From contig NZ_JASIRT010000011.1 in the NCBI RefSeq assembly GCF_030063475.1, positions 1 to 64,000 on the forward strand: a stretch of 64,000 bases of DNA, given 5' to 3'. Shown here piece by piece: positions 4,177 to 10,509 of the stretch. A program made the translations under genes and the position numbers. Every line of letters begins with the position of its first letter. Position 1 is the stretch's first letter. This DNA comes from Roseomonas sp. E05. Its GTDB lineage: Bacteria > Pseudomonadota > Alphaproteobacteria > Acetobacterales > Acetobacteraceae. The notes beneath the pieces were generated by a model that ran no database searches, was not told the origin of the DNA, and was given only the letters and a program-made list of their open reading frames with translations.

Positions 4177-5052
4177 TCACCGGCACATCAGGACGGGCAG
4201 CTCCGCATTCTCCAGCACGTGCCGCGTGACGCCCCCCAGGATGAGCTGGCGCAGGCGGGAATGGCTGTAGGCGCCCATGCAGAGCAGGTCGGCGTTGAAG
4301 TCGCGCGCCGCACCGAGCAGCCCGGCACCCACCTCGCGCGTCTGCGGCTTGAAGGGCACCGCCTCGGCGGTGACGCCGTGCCAGCGCAGATAGGCCTGCA
4401 GCCCCTCGGCGCTCGGGCCGCGCCGCTGGTAGTCCTCGCTGTGCAGGATGCGCACGGCCTCGGCATGGTGCAGCCAGGGCAGCGCCGCCGCCACCGCCGC
4501 CGCACTCTCCGCCGTGCCGTTCCAGGCGCAGCAGACGCGGGTACCGATGGTTTCCGGCACCTCGCGCGGGGCGATCAGCACCGGCCGGCCGGAATCGAAC
4601 AGCACGGCATGCAGCGCGTCGGAGGAGGAGACGTCCTCACCCGCCTCGGGGTGCGGCACCACGGCCATGTCGTAGAGGCGCGACTGCTGCGCGACGATGT
4701 CCTCCTCCCGCCCGGCGATCGATTCGAAGGAGAGGGTCGGCCCCTCCGTCTTCGCGGCCGTCTCGGCGGAGAGGGCGATGGTAACGTCGCGGCCCTGCAC
4801 GAAGCGCTCGAACAGGCTGCGCACGCGGTTGGCGCGCTCGCCGCTCTCGCGCTCGGTGGCGGCCATCATCTCCTCGATCATGGCGCCCGAGAGACCCTCG
4901 CCGGCCAAGGGCGCCACGTCGCGGGCGTCCACCCGCACGTGCAGGCAATGCACATGGGCGTTCCAGGTGCGGGCCACCATCAGGGCGGTGTGCAGCGCCG
5001 CCTCGCCGGCGGCGGTTCCAGTCAGCGGCAGCAACAGCCGGCGGTAGGCCAT
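4177..5052 (-). CDS. Universal stress protein (UspA family)
   Basis: A 291-residue protein, the length of a tandem-domain Usp. The N-terminus (KRLLLP-like strand then helix) is typical of the Usp alpha/beta fold. The C-terminal half ends in GAYSHSRLRQLILGGVTRHV, the family ATP-binding signature (G-x2-G-x9-G-[ST]-like) in a slightly altered form, followed by a PVLM strand. Usp proteins are cytoplasmic and linked to stress survival; their clients are usually unknown. The N-terminal half lacks a clear ATP motif and is probably the degenerate repeat. It is transcribed alone, away from the preceding intergenic region. Confidence 0.87.
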   Translation of the reverse strand: MAYRRLLLPLTGTAAGEAALHTALMVARTWNAHVHCLHVRVDARDVAPLAGEGLSGAMIEEMMAATERESGERANRVRSLFERFVQGRDVTIALSAETAAKTEGPTLSFESIAGREEDIVAQQSRLYDMAVVPHPEAGEDVSSSDALHAVLFDSGRPVLIAPREVPETIGTRVCCAWNGTAESAAAVAAALPWLHHAEAVRILHSEDYQRRGPSAEGLQAYLRWHGVTAEAVPFKPQTREVGAGLLGAARDFNADLLCMGAYSHSRLRQLILGGVTRHVLENAELPVLMCR

Positions 5053-5192: not shown

Positions 5193-6641
5193 TTAAATCT
5201 CGTTCGGCATCGCGGCGGTCACGTCCAGCCGCCGCCAGTCCAGCGGCCCCGGGTCCAGCCGCGCCGCCTGTTCCAGCACGGCAAGGTCGGCATCCGAGGC
5301 GTCGCCACGCCTGGCGGCGATCCGCTCGCGCAGCAGCGGCATCGGCGCCTCCAGCCAGATGCCCTGGAAGGGCACGCCGGCCCGCGCCGCGGCGGCGGCG
5401 ATTCCCGCCCGTTGCGCCGGCTCCAGGAAGGCGGCATCGGCGATCACGCAGTGGTCGGCGCGGGCGGCGGCTTCGGCCCCGGCGAAGAGGGCGGCATAGG
5501 CGGCCTCGCTGGCGGCGGCGGAATAGGCCTTGGCGGGCAGGCGAACTTCCGGCGCCACGCCATGCTGGCGCTTGCGGATCTCGTCGCTGCGCAGGACCAG
5601 CGCGCCGGGGGCGGCACCCAGGCCGGGCGCCCAGCGCCGCGCCCAGAAGGACTTGCCGCTGCCCGGCAGCCCGCCCACCGCGACCACCCGCGGGGGGGGC
5701 GGGCGCAGGGCCGCCTCGGCGGCGGCCAGCCAGGGCAGGCCGTCACGCCCGACGCGCTGCAGCACATGCGCGCGGATCAGGCTCCGCAGCGAGAGCCAGA
5801 GCGGCAGCCCCACCACCAGCCCGGCATCGTCACACCGCGCCACATAGCGGTTCAGCACCCGGTTGGCCGCCGGCCGGCCGACATTCAGGTCGAGGTCCGC
5901 GAGCAGGAAGGCCAGGTCATAGCCCGTGTCGACGGTTGCCAGCGCCTCGTCGAATTCCAGCGCGTCGAAGGGCACAGGGCGGCCCCGCCAGAGCACCAGA
6001 TTGCCGAGATGCAGGTCACCATGGCAGCGGCGGACGAAGCCGGCCTCGGCACGCGCCGCCAGAGCGGGGGCCAGGGCATCGAGCCGCGCCAGCGCCATCG
6101 CGGCCCAGGCATCGCTGCGCGCCGGCGGCAGCCCGGCCTCATGCGCCGCCGCCGCCGCGCCGGTGATGACGTCCCGCAGCGCGCCGTTGGCGTCCCAGCC
6201 GGCCACCGGCGGCAGGCTGGCGTGCTGCGCCGCCACCGCGTCGGCCAAGGCGTCCTGCAGCGCCGGGCCCAGCGCCCCGCGCGCTGCGACCGCGTCGAGG
6301 AAATCCCCCGGCGGGAGCGGCGCCATCTCCACCGCCCATTCCTCCGCCGCCCCGTTCCCACCAAGGCGCAGCGTGCCGTCCGGGCTGCGCGTCAGGGGGT
6401 GCACGGCGCGGTAGAGGTCCGGCGCCGCCGGCGCGTTCAGCGCCAGTTCGCGGCGGCAGTAGCGCTCGCGGTCCTCCAGCCGGGTGAAGTCCAGGAAGCC
6501 AAGCGCCACCGCCTTCTTCAGCTTGAACACCCGGTCCGGGCCGACGAAGACGGCGGAGATATGCGTCTCCACCGGCGCCGCATCGCCCGTCAGGCGGGAC
6601 AGCAGGGTGGCGGCCTCCTGCTGCCCTGCCGGGATGCTCAC
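5193..6641 (-). CDS. Bifunctional APH-like kinase / AAA P-loop ATPase fusion
   Basis: A 482-residue two-domain protein. The N-terminal part resembles aminoglycoside phosphotransferase-type kinases, with the catalytic loop [12 protein letters not shown] near residue 206 and a following FDALEFDE metal-binding motif. The C-terminal part begins with a Walker A loop (GGLPGSGKS, near residue 324) as in predicted kinases of the COG0645 type. This arrangement is a recurrent conserved fusion whose substrate is unknown. Its start overlaps the pdxH stop by 4 nt (6638-6641), implying translational coupling, so a link to vitamin B6 or another small-molecule phosphorylation is possible but unproven. Confidence 0.82.
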
Positions 6642-7234
6642 GGGAAAAGCGTCTCAGTGCGCCAGCCACCGCCGGGCTGCGCGTGGAACAGCCGCCGGTC
6701 ATGCAGGCGGAAGGGCATGTCCTGCCAGAATTCGAAATGCGCCGGCAGCACGCGGAAGCCGCCCCAGTAGGGCGGGCGCGGGATGTCCTCGCCGGGGAAG
6801 CGCGCCTCCGCCGCGTTCAGCGCCGCCTCCAGCTCGGTGCGGCCGGCGAGCGGGCGGGACTGCTGCGAGGCCCAGGCGCCGAGGCGCGAAAGGCGCGGGC
6901 GCGTGGCGTAGTAGGCGTCAGACTCCGCCTCGGTCACGGCTTCCACCGCACCCTCCACCCGCACCTGCCGGCGCAGCGACTTCCAGTGGAACAGCAGCGC
7001 CGCGCGCGGGTTGGCCAGCAGTTCCCCGCCCTTGCGGCTCTCGCGGTTGGTGAAGAACACGAAGCCGCGCGAATCCAGCCCCTTCAGCAGCACCATGCGG
7101 GCGGAAGGGAAGCCATCGGCCGTGGTGGTGGCCAGGCACATGGCGTTGGGGTCATTGGGCTCGCTCGCCTCGGCCTCGGCCAGCCAGGCGCGGAACAGGG
7201 TGAACGGATCAGTGGATGCATCAGGCGCGGACAT
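6638..7234 (-). CDS. pdxH: Pyridoxamine 5'-phosphate oxidase
   Basis: A 198-residue protein, normal for the family. It shows the FMN-binding split-barrel core ([11 protein letters not shown] and [12 protein letters not shown]), the [14 protein letters not shown] segment, and the C-terminal signature (WGGFRV, then FEFWQ and RLHDR) that binds substrate and FMN. It oxidises PNP or PMP to pyridoxal 5'-phosphate with oxygen in the cytoplasm (EC 1.4.3.5). It is the first gene of a minus-strand pair with the kinase/ATPase fusion and is divergent from fabI across about 107 bp. Confidence 0.95.
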
Positions 7235-7341: not shown

Positions 7342-8178
7342 ATGGAAGCTGACGCCCCGCACGCGACCTCTGCAACCGGCACGCTGATGGCCGGCAAGCG
7401 CGGCCTGATCATGGGCGTGGCCAACGACAAGTCGATCGCCTGGGGCATTGCCCGCGCCGTCGCCGCCCAGGGCGCCGAACTGGCCTTCACCTACCAGGGC
7501 GAGGCGCTGGAGAAGCGCGTCCGCCCGCTGGCCGCCAGCGTCGGCAGCGACCTGGTGCTGCCCTGCGACGTCGCCGACGAGGCCAGCATCGACGCCGTCT
7601 TCGCCGCGCTGGAGGGACGCTGGGGCAGGCTGGACTTTCTGGTCCACGCCATCGCCTATGCCGACAAGCAGTATCTCCGCGGCCGCTACATGGACACGCC
7701 GCGCGAGGCCTTCCTGCAGGCGATGGACATCTCCTGCTTCTCCTTCGCCTCGGTCAGCCGCCGGGCGGTGGCGCTGATGCCGGAAGGTGGCAGCCTGCTC
7801 ACCCTCTCCTATCTCGGCGCCGAGCGGGTGATGCCGCACTACAACGTCATGGGCGTCGCCAAGGCGGCGCTGGAGGCTTCGGTGCGCTACATGGCGGCCG
7901 ATGTCGGCGCGGAGAACATCCGGGTCAACGCGATCAGCGCCGGCCCGATCAAGACGCTCGCCGCCAGCGGCATCGGCGACTTCCGCTACATCCTGAAGTG
8001 GAACCAGTACAACGCGCCGATGAAGCGCAACACCACCATCGAGGATGTCGGCGGCGCCGGCGTGTTCCTGCTCTCCGATCTCGGCTCCGGCGTCACCGGC
8101 GAGGTGCTGCATGTGGACAGCGGCTACCACATCGTCGGCATGAAGGCGCCGGACGCGCCGGACATCACCACCGTCTGA
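7342..8178 (+). CDS. fabI: Enoyl-[acyl-carrier-protein] reductase (NADH), FabI type
   Basis: A 278-residue short-chain reductase. It has the FabI cofactor motif (KRGLIMGVANDKSIAWGIA), a LSYLGAERV segment, and the Tyr-x6-Lys pair in YNVMGVAK, followed by NAISAGPIKTLAASGI, which is diagnostic for FabI. It performs the last step of each fatty-acid elongation cycle (EC 1.3.1.9). The start at 7342 gives about 15 more residues than usual; the ATG at 7387 (MAGKRG) gives standard length, and neither has a strong ribosome binding site. It is divergent from pdxH. Confidence 0.93.
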   Translation: MEADAPHATSATGTLMAGKRGLIMGVANDKSIAWGIARAVAAQGAELAFTYQGEALEKRVRPLAASVGSDLVLPCDVADEASIDAVFAALEGRWGRLDFLVHAIAYADKQYLRGRYMDTPREAFLQAMDISCFSFASVSRRAVALMPEGGSLLTLSYLGAERVMPHYNVMGVAKAALEASVRYMAADVGAENIRVNAISAGPIKTLAASGIGDFRYILKWNQYNAPMKRNTTIEDVGGAGVFLLSDLGSGVTGEVLHVDSGYHIVGMKAPDAPDITTV

Positions 8179-8186
8179 GGCCACTT

Positions 8187-8213
8187 CCGCGCCGCGTCAT
8201 CCGCGCGGCGCGG
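8187..8213 (+). terminator. GC-rich hairpin downstream of fabI
   Basis: A perfect 10-bp stem, CCGCGCCGCG (8187-8196) with CGCGGCGCGG (8204-8213), has a 7-nt loop and starts 8 nt after the fabI stop. A pyrimidine-rich tract follows rather than a pure T run. It could terminate fabI transcription or stabilise its 3' end. Confidence 0.5.
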
Positions 8214-8282
8214 CAACCTCCCCCCCTCCCTCGCCGTTCCTCTCCCACGCGGCCAATCGGGGCCGCGTCAGGGGAGGCGCGC

Positions 8283-8507
8283 ATGAGCCAGCACGAGCAA
8301 CCGCCGCTGCCGCCGGCTGCGCATGGGCCGACACCCACCGCCGGTGCGCGCACGGCCCCCGCCTCCAGCGGCGCCGAGGGCGACGCCGCCGCGGCGGAGC
8401 GGCGCGACGAGGGCGCTTCACCCCAGTCCGCCACCCAGGCTGCGACCGAGGCCGAGCAGGACGACCGCGCCGAGCGCGCGGAAGCCGCGGCGAAGAACGC
8501 TCGCTGA
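8283..8507 (+). CDS. Small Ala/Glu-rich hydrophilic protein (1 of 4)
   Basis: A 74-residue protein starting at an ATG preceded by a strong GGGGAGG site. It is dominated by Ala, Pro, Glu, Gln and Thr, with a charged C-terminal stretch (EAEQDDRAERAEAAAKNAR). It has almost no large hydrophobic residues and no membrane segment or known motif, so it should be intrinsically disordered or at most partly helical. It is the first of four similar small genes in a row. Function unknown. Confidence 0.65.
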   Translation: MSQHEQPPLPPAAHGPTPTAGARTAPASSGAEGDAAAAERRDEGASPQSATQAATEAEQDDRAERAEAAAKNAR

Positions 8508-8544
8508 GGCGCCGCACCCCATCCTACGGATCGAGGAGAAAGTT

Positions 8545-8733
8545 ATGAGCAAGGCGCACATGCCGCCCGTGCCCCCCGAGAACCGGCCCAAGGGTCCGGG
8601 CGGGAGCACCGAGGCTGCGTCCGACAAGACCGAGCAGCATGCCAAGCCGATGAACAACATCCCGCAGAACCAGGGCCGCAGCGGCGATATCGCCCAGAAT
8701 ACGCGGAACGAGGGCTACCAGCAGGACCGCTGA
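8545..8733 (+). CDS. Small Gly/Asn/Gln-rich hydrophilic protein (2 of 4)
   Basis: A 62-residue protein with a GAGGAG ribosome binding site before the ATG at 8545. It is rich in Pro, Gly, Asn and Gln, ends in NTRNEGYQQDR, and has no hydrophobic core. The composition resembles hydrophilins or LEA-like stress proteins, which is an inference from composition only. It lies 37 bp after the previous small gene and 24 bp before the next, so an operon is likely. Confidence 0.65.
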   Translation: MSKAHMPPVPPENRPKGPGGSTEAASDKTEQHAKPMNNIPQNQGRSGDIAQNTRNEGYQQDR

Positions 8734-8757
8734 CCGGCGGCGAAGGAGAAGGCACCA

Positions 8758-8979
8758 ATGCCCGAGCATAATTCCGACACCCAGCGCCACGGCGGTCCCG
8801 GCAGCAGCCATCAGAACCGCCAGGATCCGAGCAAGTCCGCCCCCACTGGCCATAAGGGCGGCGGCTCGACGGAAGGGCCGACGCCCGGTTCGCCGACCAA
8901 TAGCCGCGAGAGCCGAACCTCCGGCGGCGGCGGCGAGCGGGACAGCCACCACACCCACGATTCCACCAGCCGCTCCTGA
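8758..8979 (+). CDS. Small Gly/Ser/His-rich hydrophilic protein (3 of 4)
   Basis: A 73-residue protein with an AAGGAG site upstream of the ATG at 8758. It consists almost entirely of Gly, Ser, His, Thr, Asp, Arg and Pro, ending in GGGGERDSHHTHDSTSRS, which could bind metal. There is no hydrophobic core, so disorder is expected. It is the third member of the tandem set, and no homologous family is recognised. Confidence 0.6.
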   Translation: MPEHNSDTQRHGGPGSSHQNRQDPSKSAPTGHKGGGSTEGPTPGSPTNSRESRTSGGGGERDSHHTHDSTSRS

Positions 8980-9008
8980 GGGCAGGAGCGGTCCGGAAGG
9001 AGGCTCAG

Positions 9009-9248
9009 ATGGCCGACGACGACAAGCAGAACCGCGACGCGATGAACCCGGACGACAGCGGCACCATCCGCAAGTCGCATCTCGGCGATGCCGAGCAGCA
9101 GGAAACCGCCAGCGGCACCATCCGTCAGCCGATCCAGCCGGGGGAAGTGCAGCCGGGCGAGACGAACGAGCTGGCGCAGACCCTGGGCGGGCCGGTGGAT
9201 GTCTTCCCCGCCGGCGGGCGCCGCAAGACGCCGCAGTCCGGCGCCTGA
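9009..9248 (+). CDS. Small acidic hydrophilic protein (4 of 4)
   Basis: A 79-residue protein with a strong GGAAGGAGG site before the ATG at 9009. The N-terminus (MADDDKQNRDAMNPDDSG) is very acidic; the middle contains two similar pieces (SGTIRKSHLGD and SGTIRQPIQPG) and the C-terminus is basic. The internal near-repeat is the only structural feature visible. It closes the four-gene run and is followed by a hairpin repeat that could end the transcript. Confidence 0.65.
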   Translation: MADDDKQNRDAMNPDDSGTIRKSHLGDAEQQETASGTIRQPIQPGEVQPGETNELAQTLGGPVDVFPAGGRRKTPQSGA

Positions 9249-9254
9249 GCCCTC

Positions 9255-9320
9255 GGGGGAGGCGCCGCCTCTCCCCCGAACCCCCTCCGCCGGGGTGACC
9301 GTGTCACCCCGGACCCCGCC
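9255..9320 (-). repeat. GC-rich double-hairpin repeat, copy A
   Basis: Two dyads are visible. The first is a GGGGGAGGCG arm against a CGCCTC-TCCCCC arm at 9255-9277. The second is a perfect 10-bp stem (CCGGGGTGAC with GTCACCCCGG, 3-nt loop) at 9290-9312, flanked by GGACCCCGCC. The same pattern, a GGCGGGGTCC edge followed by two or more hairpins, recurs at about 12.9, 31.0, 32.45 and 35.0 kb; this copy is inverted relative to those. It may act as a terminator for the small-protein operon. Confidence 0.75.
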
Positions 9321-9402: not shown

Positions 9403-10509
9403 ATGTCCCATAACAGCTTCGGCCACCTGTTCCGCGTCACCTCCTGGGGCGAAAGCCACGGGCCGGCGATCGGCGGCGTGGTGGATGGCTGCCCGCCCGG
9501 CATCCCCCTCAGCGAGGCCGACATCCAGCCTTTCCTGGACCGCCGGCGGCCCGGCCAGTCCAAGTTCGTCACCCAGCGGCAGGAGCCGGACCAGGTCCGT
9601 ATTCTCTCCGGCGTCTTCGAGGGCATCACCACCGGCACGCCGATCTCCCTGCTGATCGAGAACCAGGACCAGCGCAGCAAGGACTACGGCGAGATCAAGG
9701 ACCGCTTCCGCCCCGGTCATGCCGACCTGGCCTATCACCTGAAATACGGCCTGCGCGACTACCGCGGCGGCGGCCGCTCCAGTGCGCGGGAGACGGCGGT
9801 GCGCGTCGCCGCCGGCGCCATCGCCCGCAAGGTGCTGGGCGCCGGCGTCACCATCCGCGGCGCCATGGTCGCCATGGGGCCGCTCGGCATCGCGCGCAGC
9901 CGCTTCGACTGGGCCGAGGTGGAGCGCAACCCCTTCTTCTGCCCCGACCCCGGCGCCGTGCCGCTCTGGGAGGAGAAGCTGGCCGCCACCCGCAAGGCGG
10001 GCTCCTCCCTCGGCGCCGTCATCGAGCTGGTGGCGGAGGGCGTGCCGGTCGGCCTCGGCGCGCCGCTCTACGGCAAGCTGGACGCCGACCTCGCCGCCGC
10101 GCTGATGAGCATCAATGCCGTCAAGGGCGTGGAGATCGGCGAGGGCTTCGCGAGCGCCGCCCTGGACGGGGAAGGCAATGCCGACGAGATGCGGATGCGG
10201 CCGGACGGCGAGGTGGAATTCCTCTCCAACCATGCCGGCGGCGTTCTGGGCGGCATCTCCACCGGCCAGCCCGTCGTGGCGCGCTTCGCGGTGAAGCCCA
10301 CCTCCTCCATCCTGACGCCGCGCCGCTCGGTGGACCGCTTCGGCCAGGAGGTGGAAGTGCTGACCAAGGGCCGGCATGATCCCTGCGTCGGCATCCGGGC
10401 CGTGCCGGTGGGCGAGGCCATGCTGGCCTGCGTGCTGGCCGACCACCTGCTGCGCCACCGGGCCCAGAACCCCGATGCGCCGGAGCGCCCCCGCCTGCCG
10501 CGCAACTGA
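9403..10509 (+). CDS. aroC: Chorismate synthase
   Basis: A 368-residue protein that begins [20 protein letters not shown], the highly conserved N-terminus that fixes the start at 9403 rather than the in-frame codon at 9382. It also has [20 protein letters not shown] and, near the C-terminus, [18 protein letters not shown], the three family signatures. It removes phosphate from EPSP to give chorismate using reduced FMN (EC 4.2.3.5), the last shikimate step. It follows the small-protein cluster and a hairpin repeat, so it is probably transcribed separately. Confidence 0.96.

Follow-up and report, generated by a model that had tools for sequence, protein, structure and literature searches.

A predicted general-stress operon in Roseomonas sp. 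E05 encoding four small, disordered, hydrophilin-like proteins with conserved end motifs

The window analysed here is the whole 64,000-nucleotide stretch of Roseomonas sp. E05 DNA, and between its fabI and aroC genes lie four consecutive small open reading frames (ORFs), here called A to D. The preliminary description of this DNA had reported four plus-strand ORFs, each behind a Shine-Dalgarno site, and both points hold: the ORFs encode 74, 62, 73 and 79 residues, and the purine-rich sites AGGGGAGG, GAGGAG, GAAGGAG and GGAAGGAGG precede A, B, C and D, respectively. The features of the locus are as follows.

7342-8178, same direction as A-D and 5' of them: fabI (name from NCBIfam)
8187-8213, plus strand: hairpin after fabI, its probable terminator (RNA fold -23.8 kcal/mol, z -3.06 against 200 shuffles)
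8213-8238, plus strand: EcfG-type promoter-like site, GCAAC-N17-CGTT, 70 nt before the ATG of ORF A
8283-8507, plus strand: ORF A, 74 aa, Ala/Glu/Pro-rich, predicted to be disordered
8545-8733, plus strand: ORF B, 62 aa, two end motifs with a variable linker between them
8758-8979, plus strand: ORF C, 73 aa, partner of B
9009-9248, plus strand: ORF D, 79 aa, family core ASGTIxxPIPPGEPQPGDxNELAxxLGGPVDVFP
9253-9279, plus strand: G+C-rich hairpin 3' of D, a possible transcript end (-26.7 kcal/mol for a 55-nt stretch, z -0.88, a stability no greater than that of shuffles by RNA fold)
9403-10509, 3' of A-D: aroC (name from NCBIfam)

The last base of the hairpin after fabI touches the promoter-like site. 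No convincing sigma-70 promoter or U-tract terminator was found on the plus strand between 8100 and 9500. The four ORFs are predicted to form one transcript. Among the 37 ATG-initiated ORFs of 50-90 residues that follow a Shine-Dalgarno site on either strand of the window, A, B, C and D rank 6, 2, 1 and 4 for hydrophilicity; these high ranks, together with the adjacent positions of the four ORFs, argue against a chance cluster. A few kilobases upstream, on the minus strand (4180-5052), the window also contains a gene for a universal stress protein (PF00582), which was found in five other genomes of the compared set.

The substitution pattern in relatives marks the four ORFs as real genes. Each of the 36 sequence pairs compared has a dN/dS ratio below 1 (range 0.07-0.78), and in the alignment of the window with the related genome G005 the substitutions peak at the third codon position in A, B, C and D, with no gap columns inside the ORFs and 17 between them. 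The preliminary description had named a lack of reading-frame conservation as grounds for giving up its proposal; the third-position excess, the absence of internal gaps and the dN/dS values all point the other way. Its statement that the four proteins are not copies of one another also stands, the best blastp cross-match being that between A and B (E = 0.03); with a match of only this strength, a derivation of A as a diverged copy of B is not claimed.

All four proteins lie beyond the two numerical limits used for hydrophilins (Gly >6%, GRAVY <-1), with Gly contents of 6.8, 9.7, 17.8 and 12.7% and GRAVY values of -1.04, -1.62, -1.86 and -1.11 for A, B, C and D, respectively, as do 75 of 76 distinct relatives of B. 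The hydrophilin-like composition first noted is thereby borne out, although a passage in PMC4190154 calls numerical criteria or composition alone insufficient to define a hydrophilin. The earlier wording that the proteins are almost free of large hydrophobic residues describes A and C exactly but goes somewhat too far for B and D, the summed content of F, I, L, M, V, W, Y and C being 2.7% (A), 11.3% (B), 1.4% (C) and 15.2% (D). Aromatic residues are confined to one Tyr in B and one Phe in D, with none in A or C. Disorder prediction, one of the checks proposed at the outset, classed all four proteins as disordered by the charge-hydropathy plot, and AlphaFold found no fold for B alone (pLDDT 61, pTM 0.16) or for C alone (pLDDT 56, pTM 0.13).

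Neither A-D nor profiles built for B and C matched anything in Pfam, NCBIfam, PHROGs or the solved structures of the PDB, the Pfam search for A-D having been taken to E ≤ 1. Conservation in B and C is concentrated at the ends of the proteins. Family B (50 sequences) carries an N-terminal H-x-PPVPPANR and a C-terminal QGrxgniKQNTTnQGYQQDR motif, joined by a linker of variable length, and eight positions are invariant (P7, P10, N52, T53, G57, Q60, D61 and R62). Family C carries GGPGSSHQ near the N terminus and SRvSGGGGERDxHHTHDPxxK at the C terminus; within SGGGGERDxHHTHD, three Gly residues, D62 and H65 are invariant over 36 sequences (from the 37 picked, two were dropped from the alignment, L194 with a long spurious N terminus and L226, which is short). 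The middles of both proteins differ in length between relatives. The sub-clade of D to which the window belongs has an extra N-terminal copy of SGTIR, making two in all (window 9057-9125), and relatives outside it carry the second copy only. A literature search with the conserved motif strings gave no match, though the genes may stand in supplementary tables under locus tags, and the four families were not found named in the literature searched on small hydrophilic proteins, EcfG or hydrophilins. Judged by these searches, B-C is an undescribed gene pair and A-D are new protein families, hydrophilin-like in kind.

To map the families, 17 genomes of the genus, including that of strain E05, were searched (E limits of 0.001 for B and 0.01 for A, C and D), giving A in 4, B in 12, C in 12 and D in 15. 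Apart from these four genomes, A was seen only as two further diverged copies in named relatives, all within the genus. Of 160 genomes of the family, 24 contain B by profile search, 23 contain C and 19 contain D; across the class, the B profile matched in 9 of 385 genomes. The E05 genome is counted in both totals for B. A scan of named species genomes for B returned 348 pattern stretches, of which 313 were confirmed and 80 loci kept, from Pseudoroseomonas, Belnapia, Roseomonas, Siccirubricoccus, Bradyrhizobium, Devosia, Azospirillum, Paracoccus, Phyllobacterium and others. All are alphaproteobacterial by title except for one metagenome-assembled genome labelled Candidatus Marinimicrobia, which may be misbinned. 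Six plasmid records (Azospirillum, Pelagibacterium and Rhizobium) contain B, either unannotated or as 'hypothetical protein', and C was not found in plasmid records.

In 67 of the 80 loci, C follows B on the same strand at a distance of no more than 500 nt, while the further partners change by lineage. In Bradyrhizobium and some others, two other small hydrophilic families, E (26 of 80 loci) and F (29 of 80), follow B-C, as at L189, where they occupy 6641-6901 and 6938-7174 on the 3' side of the pair; neither has a Pfam match. Within the genus, A and D are added to the pair, and in two genomes (G003 and G004) C-D lies between fabI and aroC with B at another place. Outside the genus, D had its own separate location in all 15 loci opened. 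Conservation of the cluster in relatives, a further check suggested by the preliminary description, is therefore split: the B-C pair is widespread, while A was seen within the genus alone and D, outside the genus, occupies a place of its own. From this distribution, the A-B-C-D set is not one unit by descent, and B-C is an old pair that forms its core, since it persists while A and D (here) or E and F (in Bradyrhizobium) come and go.

A strict EcfG motif, GGAAC-N16/17-[CT]GTT, was searched for within 150 nt upstream of B; a passage in PMC6599016 gives the motif in Sphingomonas as GGAAC-N17-20-GTT. The strict motif was present in 41 of the 80 loci and absent from 39, compared with a mean of 0.14 and a maximum of 2 of 80 after dinucleotide shuffling, 5 hits on the reverse strand, and a background in the same loci of 0.006 per 150 nt and strand. 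The 41 hits carry 17 genus-level labels, and 19 of them come from Bradyrhizobium, relatives of the same genus not being independent. Their distances to B cluster at 47-64 and 82-104 nt. In a separate set of genomes, 12 of the 20 clusters from other genera that begin with B have the strict motif upstream (shuffle mean 0.03), and 17 of the 20 have a relaxed form.

Within the genus, the relaxed motif stands before 16 of 19 clusters (4/4 A-first, 7/8 B-first, 2/2 C-first and 3/5 D-first). It is nearly self-complementary, with a reverse-strand match as well in all four A-first and both C-first cases; as it reads on both strands, its orientation is assigned from distance and from the strict sites found at other loci. 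Before D alone outside the genus, the strict motif was found in none of 15 loci, and the relaxed motif in 7 of 15 on the forward versus 8 of 15 on the reverse strand. The 64-kb window contains no perfect GGAAC EcfG site. The site at 8213-8238, which has one mismatch to GGAAC, is one of seven relaxed matches on the two strands of the window and is kept upstream of A in all four genomes that contain A. GCAAC variants are included in the Sphingomonas EcfG target list, as given in part of PMC6599016, together with DUF3597 and PRC-barrel genes.

Profile matches place the components of the general stress response in the E05 genome: NepR above the cut-off at two places, a PhyR-type protein, an ECF sigma factor and a HisKA_2/HWE kinase. 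The sigma factor is taken to be EcfG proper from its place beside PhyR and NepR. Directly after PhyR lies an ORF for a 67-residue hydrophilic protein (ALEDTFPASDPPAT; L174:6443-6646), with GCAACC-N15-GGTT about 70 nt upstream of it. The pattern GCAACC-N15/16-[CG]GTT occurs 56 times in this genome versus 11 times for a crude control, the pattern read backwards. Thirty of the 56 sites were inspected; 23 lie outside called genes, which is an upper estimate because the gene caller used misses some genes, and 15 of these 23 have an ORF start within 220 nt. Two of the entries, L264 and L265, are one site on two strands. The genes behind such sites encode a CsbD protein, a DUF3072 protein, a short-chain dehydrogenase near PhyR, a carbonic anhydrase and three small hydrophilic ORFs, and other sites precede genes with no clear link to stress. 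Two of the small hydrophilic ORFs behind the motif, at L271:1133-1375 and L277:1558-1752, are unannotated.

Several neighbours of the four families in relatives are of stress types. In genome G411, a KGG hydrophilin gene precedes B by 67 nt; a regular-expression scan of the 80 named loci found no KGG gene beside B, so this is a single case. The hpf gene lies 63-64 nt from B in G003 and G004, a relative of D is near a gene for an hpf-cold-shock fusion in G001, a PRC-barrel gene is near C in G471, and DUF3597 and Transgly_assoc genes adjoin D in relatives. A group of longer D-type paralogues adjoins a DUF3775 gene (L142 and L143) and, in G001, is also near the hpf-cold-shock fusion gene. The divergent neighbour of B-C, or of B, is a tyrosine-phosphatase-like gene in 10 genomes (L116-L118, L122-L126, L128 and L130). 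Among the recurrent neighbours, called with a simple third-position G+C caller that misses some genes, neither a modification enzyme nor a toxin was noticed, and the ideas of a RiPP precursor and of a toxin-antitoxin system were dropped.

On balance, we consider A-D to be probably, though by no means securely, a small operon of the general stress response, whose products are disordered, hydrophilin-like and marked by conserved end motifs. The stress role suggested in the preliminary description is partly supported, by the EcfG-type promoter motifs, the general-stress regulators of the genome and the stress-type neighbours in relatives. EcfG is the predicted regulator of the operon, strongly suggested by the promoter motifs before B in relatives and by the regulators present in the genome, with a one-mismatch site in the window itself, and it would be the sigma factor that transcribes the operon in E05. 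In the mechanism that we propose, PhyR would free EcfG from NepR, and RNA polymerase would start at the 8213-8238 site to give a single short A-B-C-D message, separate from that of fabI (by the hairpin that comes before it) and from aroC. The products would accumulate in cells that are stressed, shocked with salt, drying out or at rest, and would shield macromolecules by maintaining their hydration and their separation from one another, a protective role to which the composition of the proteins and the stress-type neighbours point. B and C would be the old, jointly inherited pair, and A and D exchangeable extras.

The invariant ends of B and C exceed the needs of a bulk protectant, which suggests a definite partner. 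B and C might accordingly be short stress-induced adaptors and not bulk protectants, with ends that bind a single partner, such as the ribosome, a hibernation factor, RNA polymerase, a protease or an RNA, and with a disordered middle that is a mere spacer. Conservation that resides in the end motifs and not in composition, the variable length of the middles and the hpf genes close to B and to the relative of D fit such adaptors; however, hpf adjacency is limited to three genomes, neither a partner nor a fused domain was seen for B or C, and AlphaFold gave no fold for either protein alone. We regard this alternative as unlikely, yet serious enough to keep in view. A more specific proposal is that B-C is a two-part device within the general stress response of alphaproteobacteria, made of disordered tethers whose fixed end motifs (QNTTxQGYQQDR and SGGGGERDxHHTHDP) dock on one conserved cellular machine, and that it forms an exchangeable protective kit with the changing partners A, D, E and F; this is put forward as speculation, and we would be inclined to doubt it.

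Two further alternatives concern the composition of the proteins. Their disorder and their Gly, Ser, Gln and His content might be expected of condensate scaffolds that reorganise the stressed cytoplasm; however, aromatic residues are the usual stickers of such scaffolds and are almost absent from A-D, which makes this reading very improbable. It is just as hard to credit that C binds metal through its HHTHD cluster and that the operon buffers metals under stress: the HH.H motif is nearly invariant in C, and the window copy has 7 His in 73 residues, but C has no Cys, the motif is not shared by A, B or D, and no metal transporter was noticed among the recurrent neighbours. Finally, open frames are many in high-GC genomes and fabI lies upstream in the same direction, but the codon-position pattern, the conservation of the families over many genera, the location of B-C away from fabI in other genera and the hairpin after fabI leave next to no probability that A-D are spurious frames produced by G+C-rich sequence, or that they reflect an unrelated housekeeping transcript running through from fabI.

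The predicted operon was compared with known stress systems. Like the KGG hydrophilins (PF10685; YciG/YmdF of enterobacteria, GsiB-type), A-D are small, Gly-rich and very hydrophilic; they differ in having no KGG profile match, in their own conserved motifs and in the presence of several unrelated proteins in one operon. With LEA/dehydrin-type proteins, for which literature abstracts propose protection during water loss, A-D share hydrophilicity and disorder but no Pfam match. CsbD-like general-stress proteins (PF05532) are likewise short and hydrophilic, and the CsbD gene of the E05 genome has the same GCAACC-N-GTT motif upstream, but A-D have no sequence match to CsbD. The likeness to the PhyR-NepR-EcfG regulon lies in the EcfG-type promoter motif (one base off in the window itself), the regulators present in the genome and the neighbours of EcfG-target types; the A-D families were not found named for this regulon, and their regulation by it is a prediction. 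The nearest known parallel is the group of RpoS-controlled small proteins of Salmonella, which include KGG hydrophilins: in part of PMC5437024, Salmonella YciG is called a hydrophilin and KGG proteins are placed under the general-stress sigma factor RpoS.

The general-stress regulons of alphaproteobacteria contain many small proteins annotated merely as hypothetical. B-C offers a concrete and widespread pair with a recognisable promoter and strict motifs, and its occurrence in Bradyrhizobium, Azospirillum and other genera makes the function of such proteins open to testing. If the two-part device were true, it would represent a new stress-protein class, with docking motifs as its defining feature in place of composition. 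The locus further suggests that mixed operons of hydrophilin-like proteins can exist, in which conservation of the core extends beyond composition to sequence.
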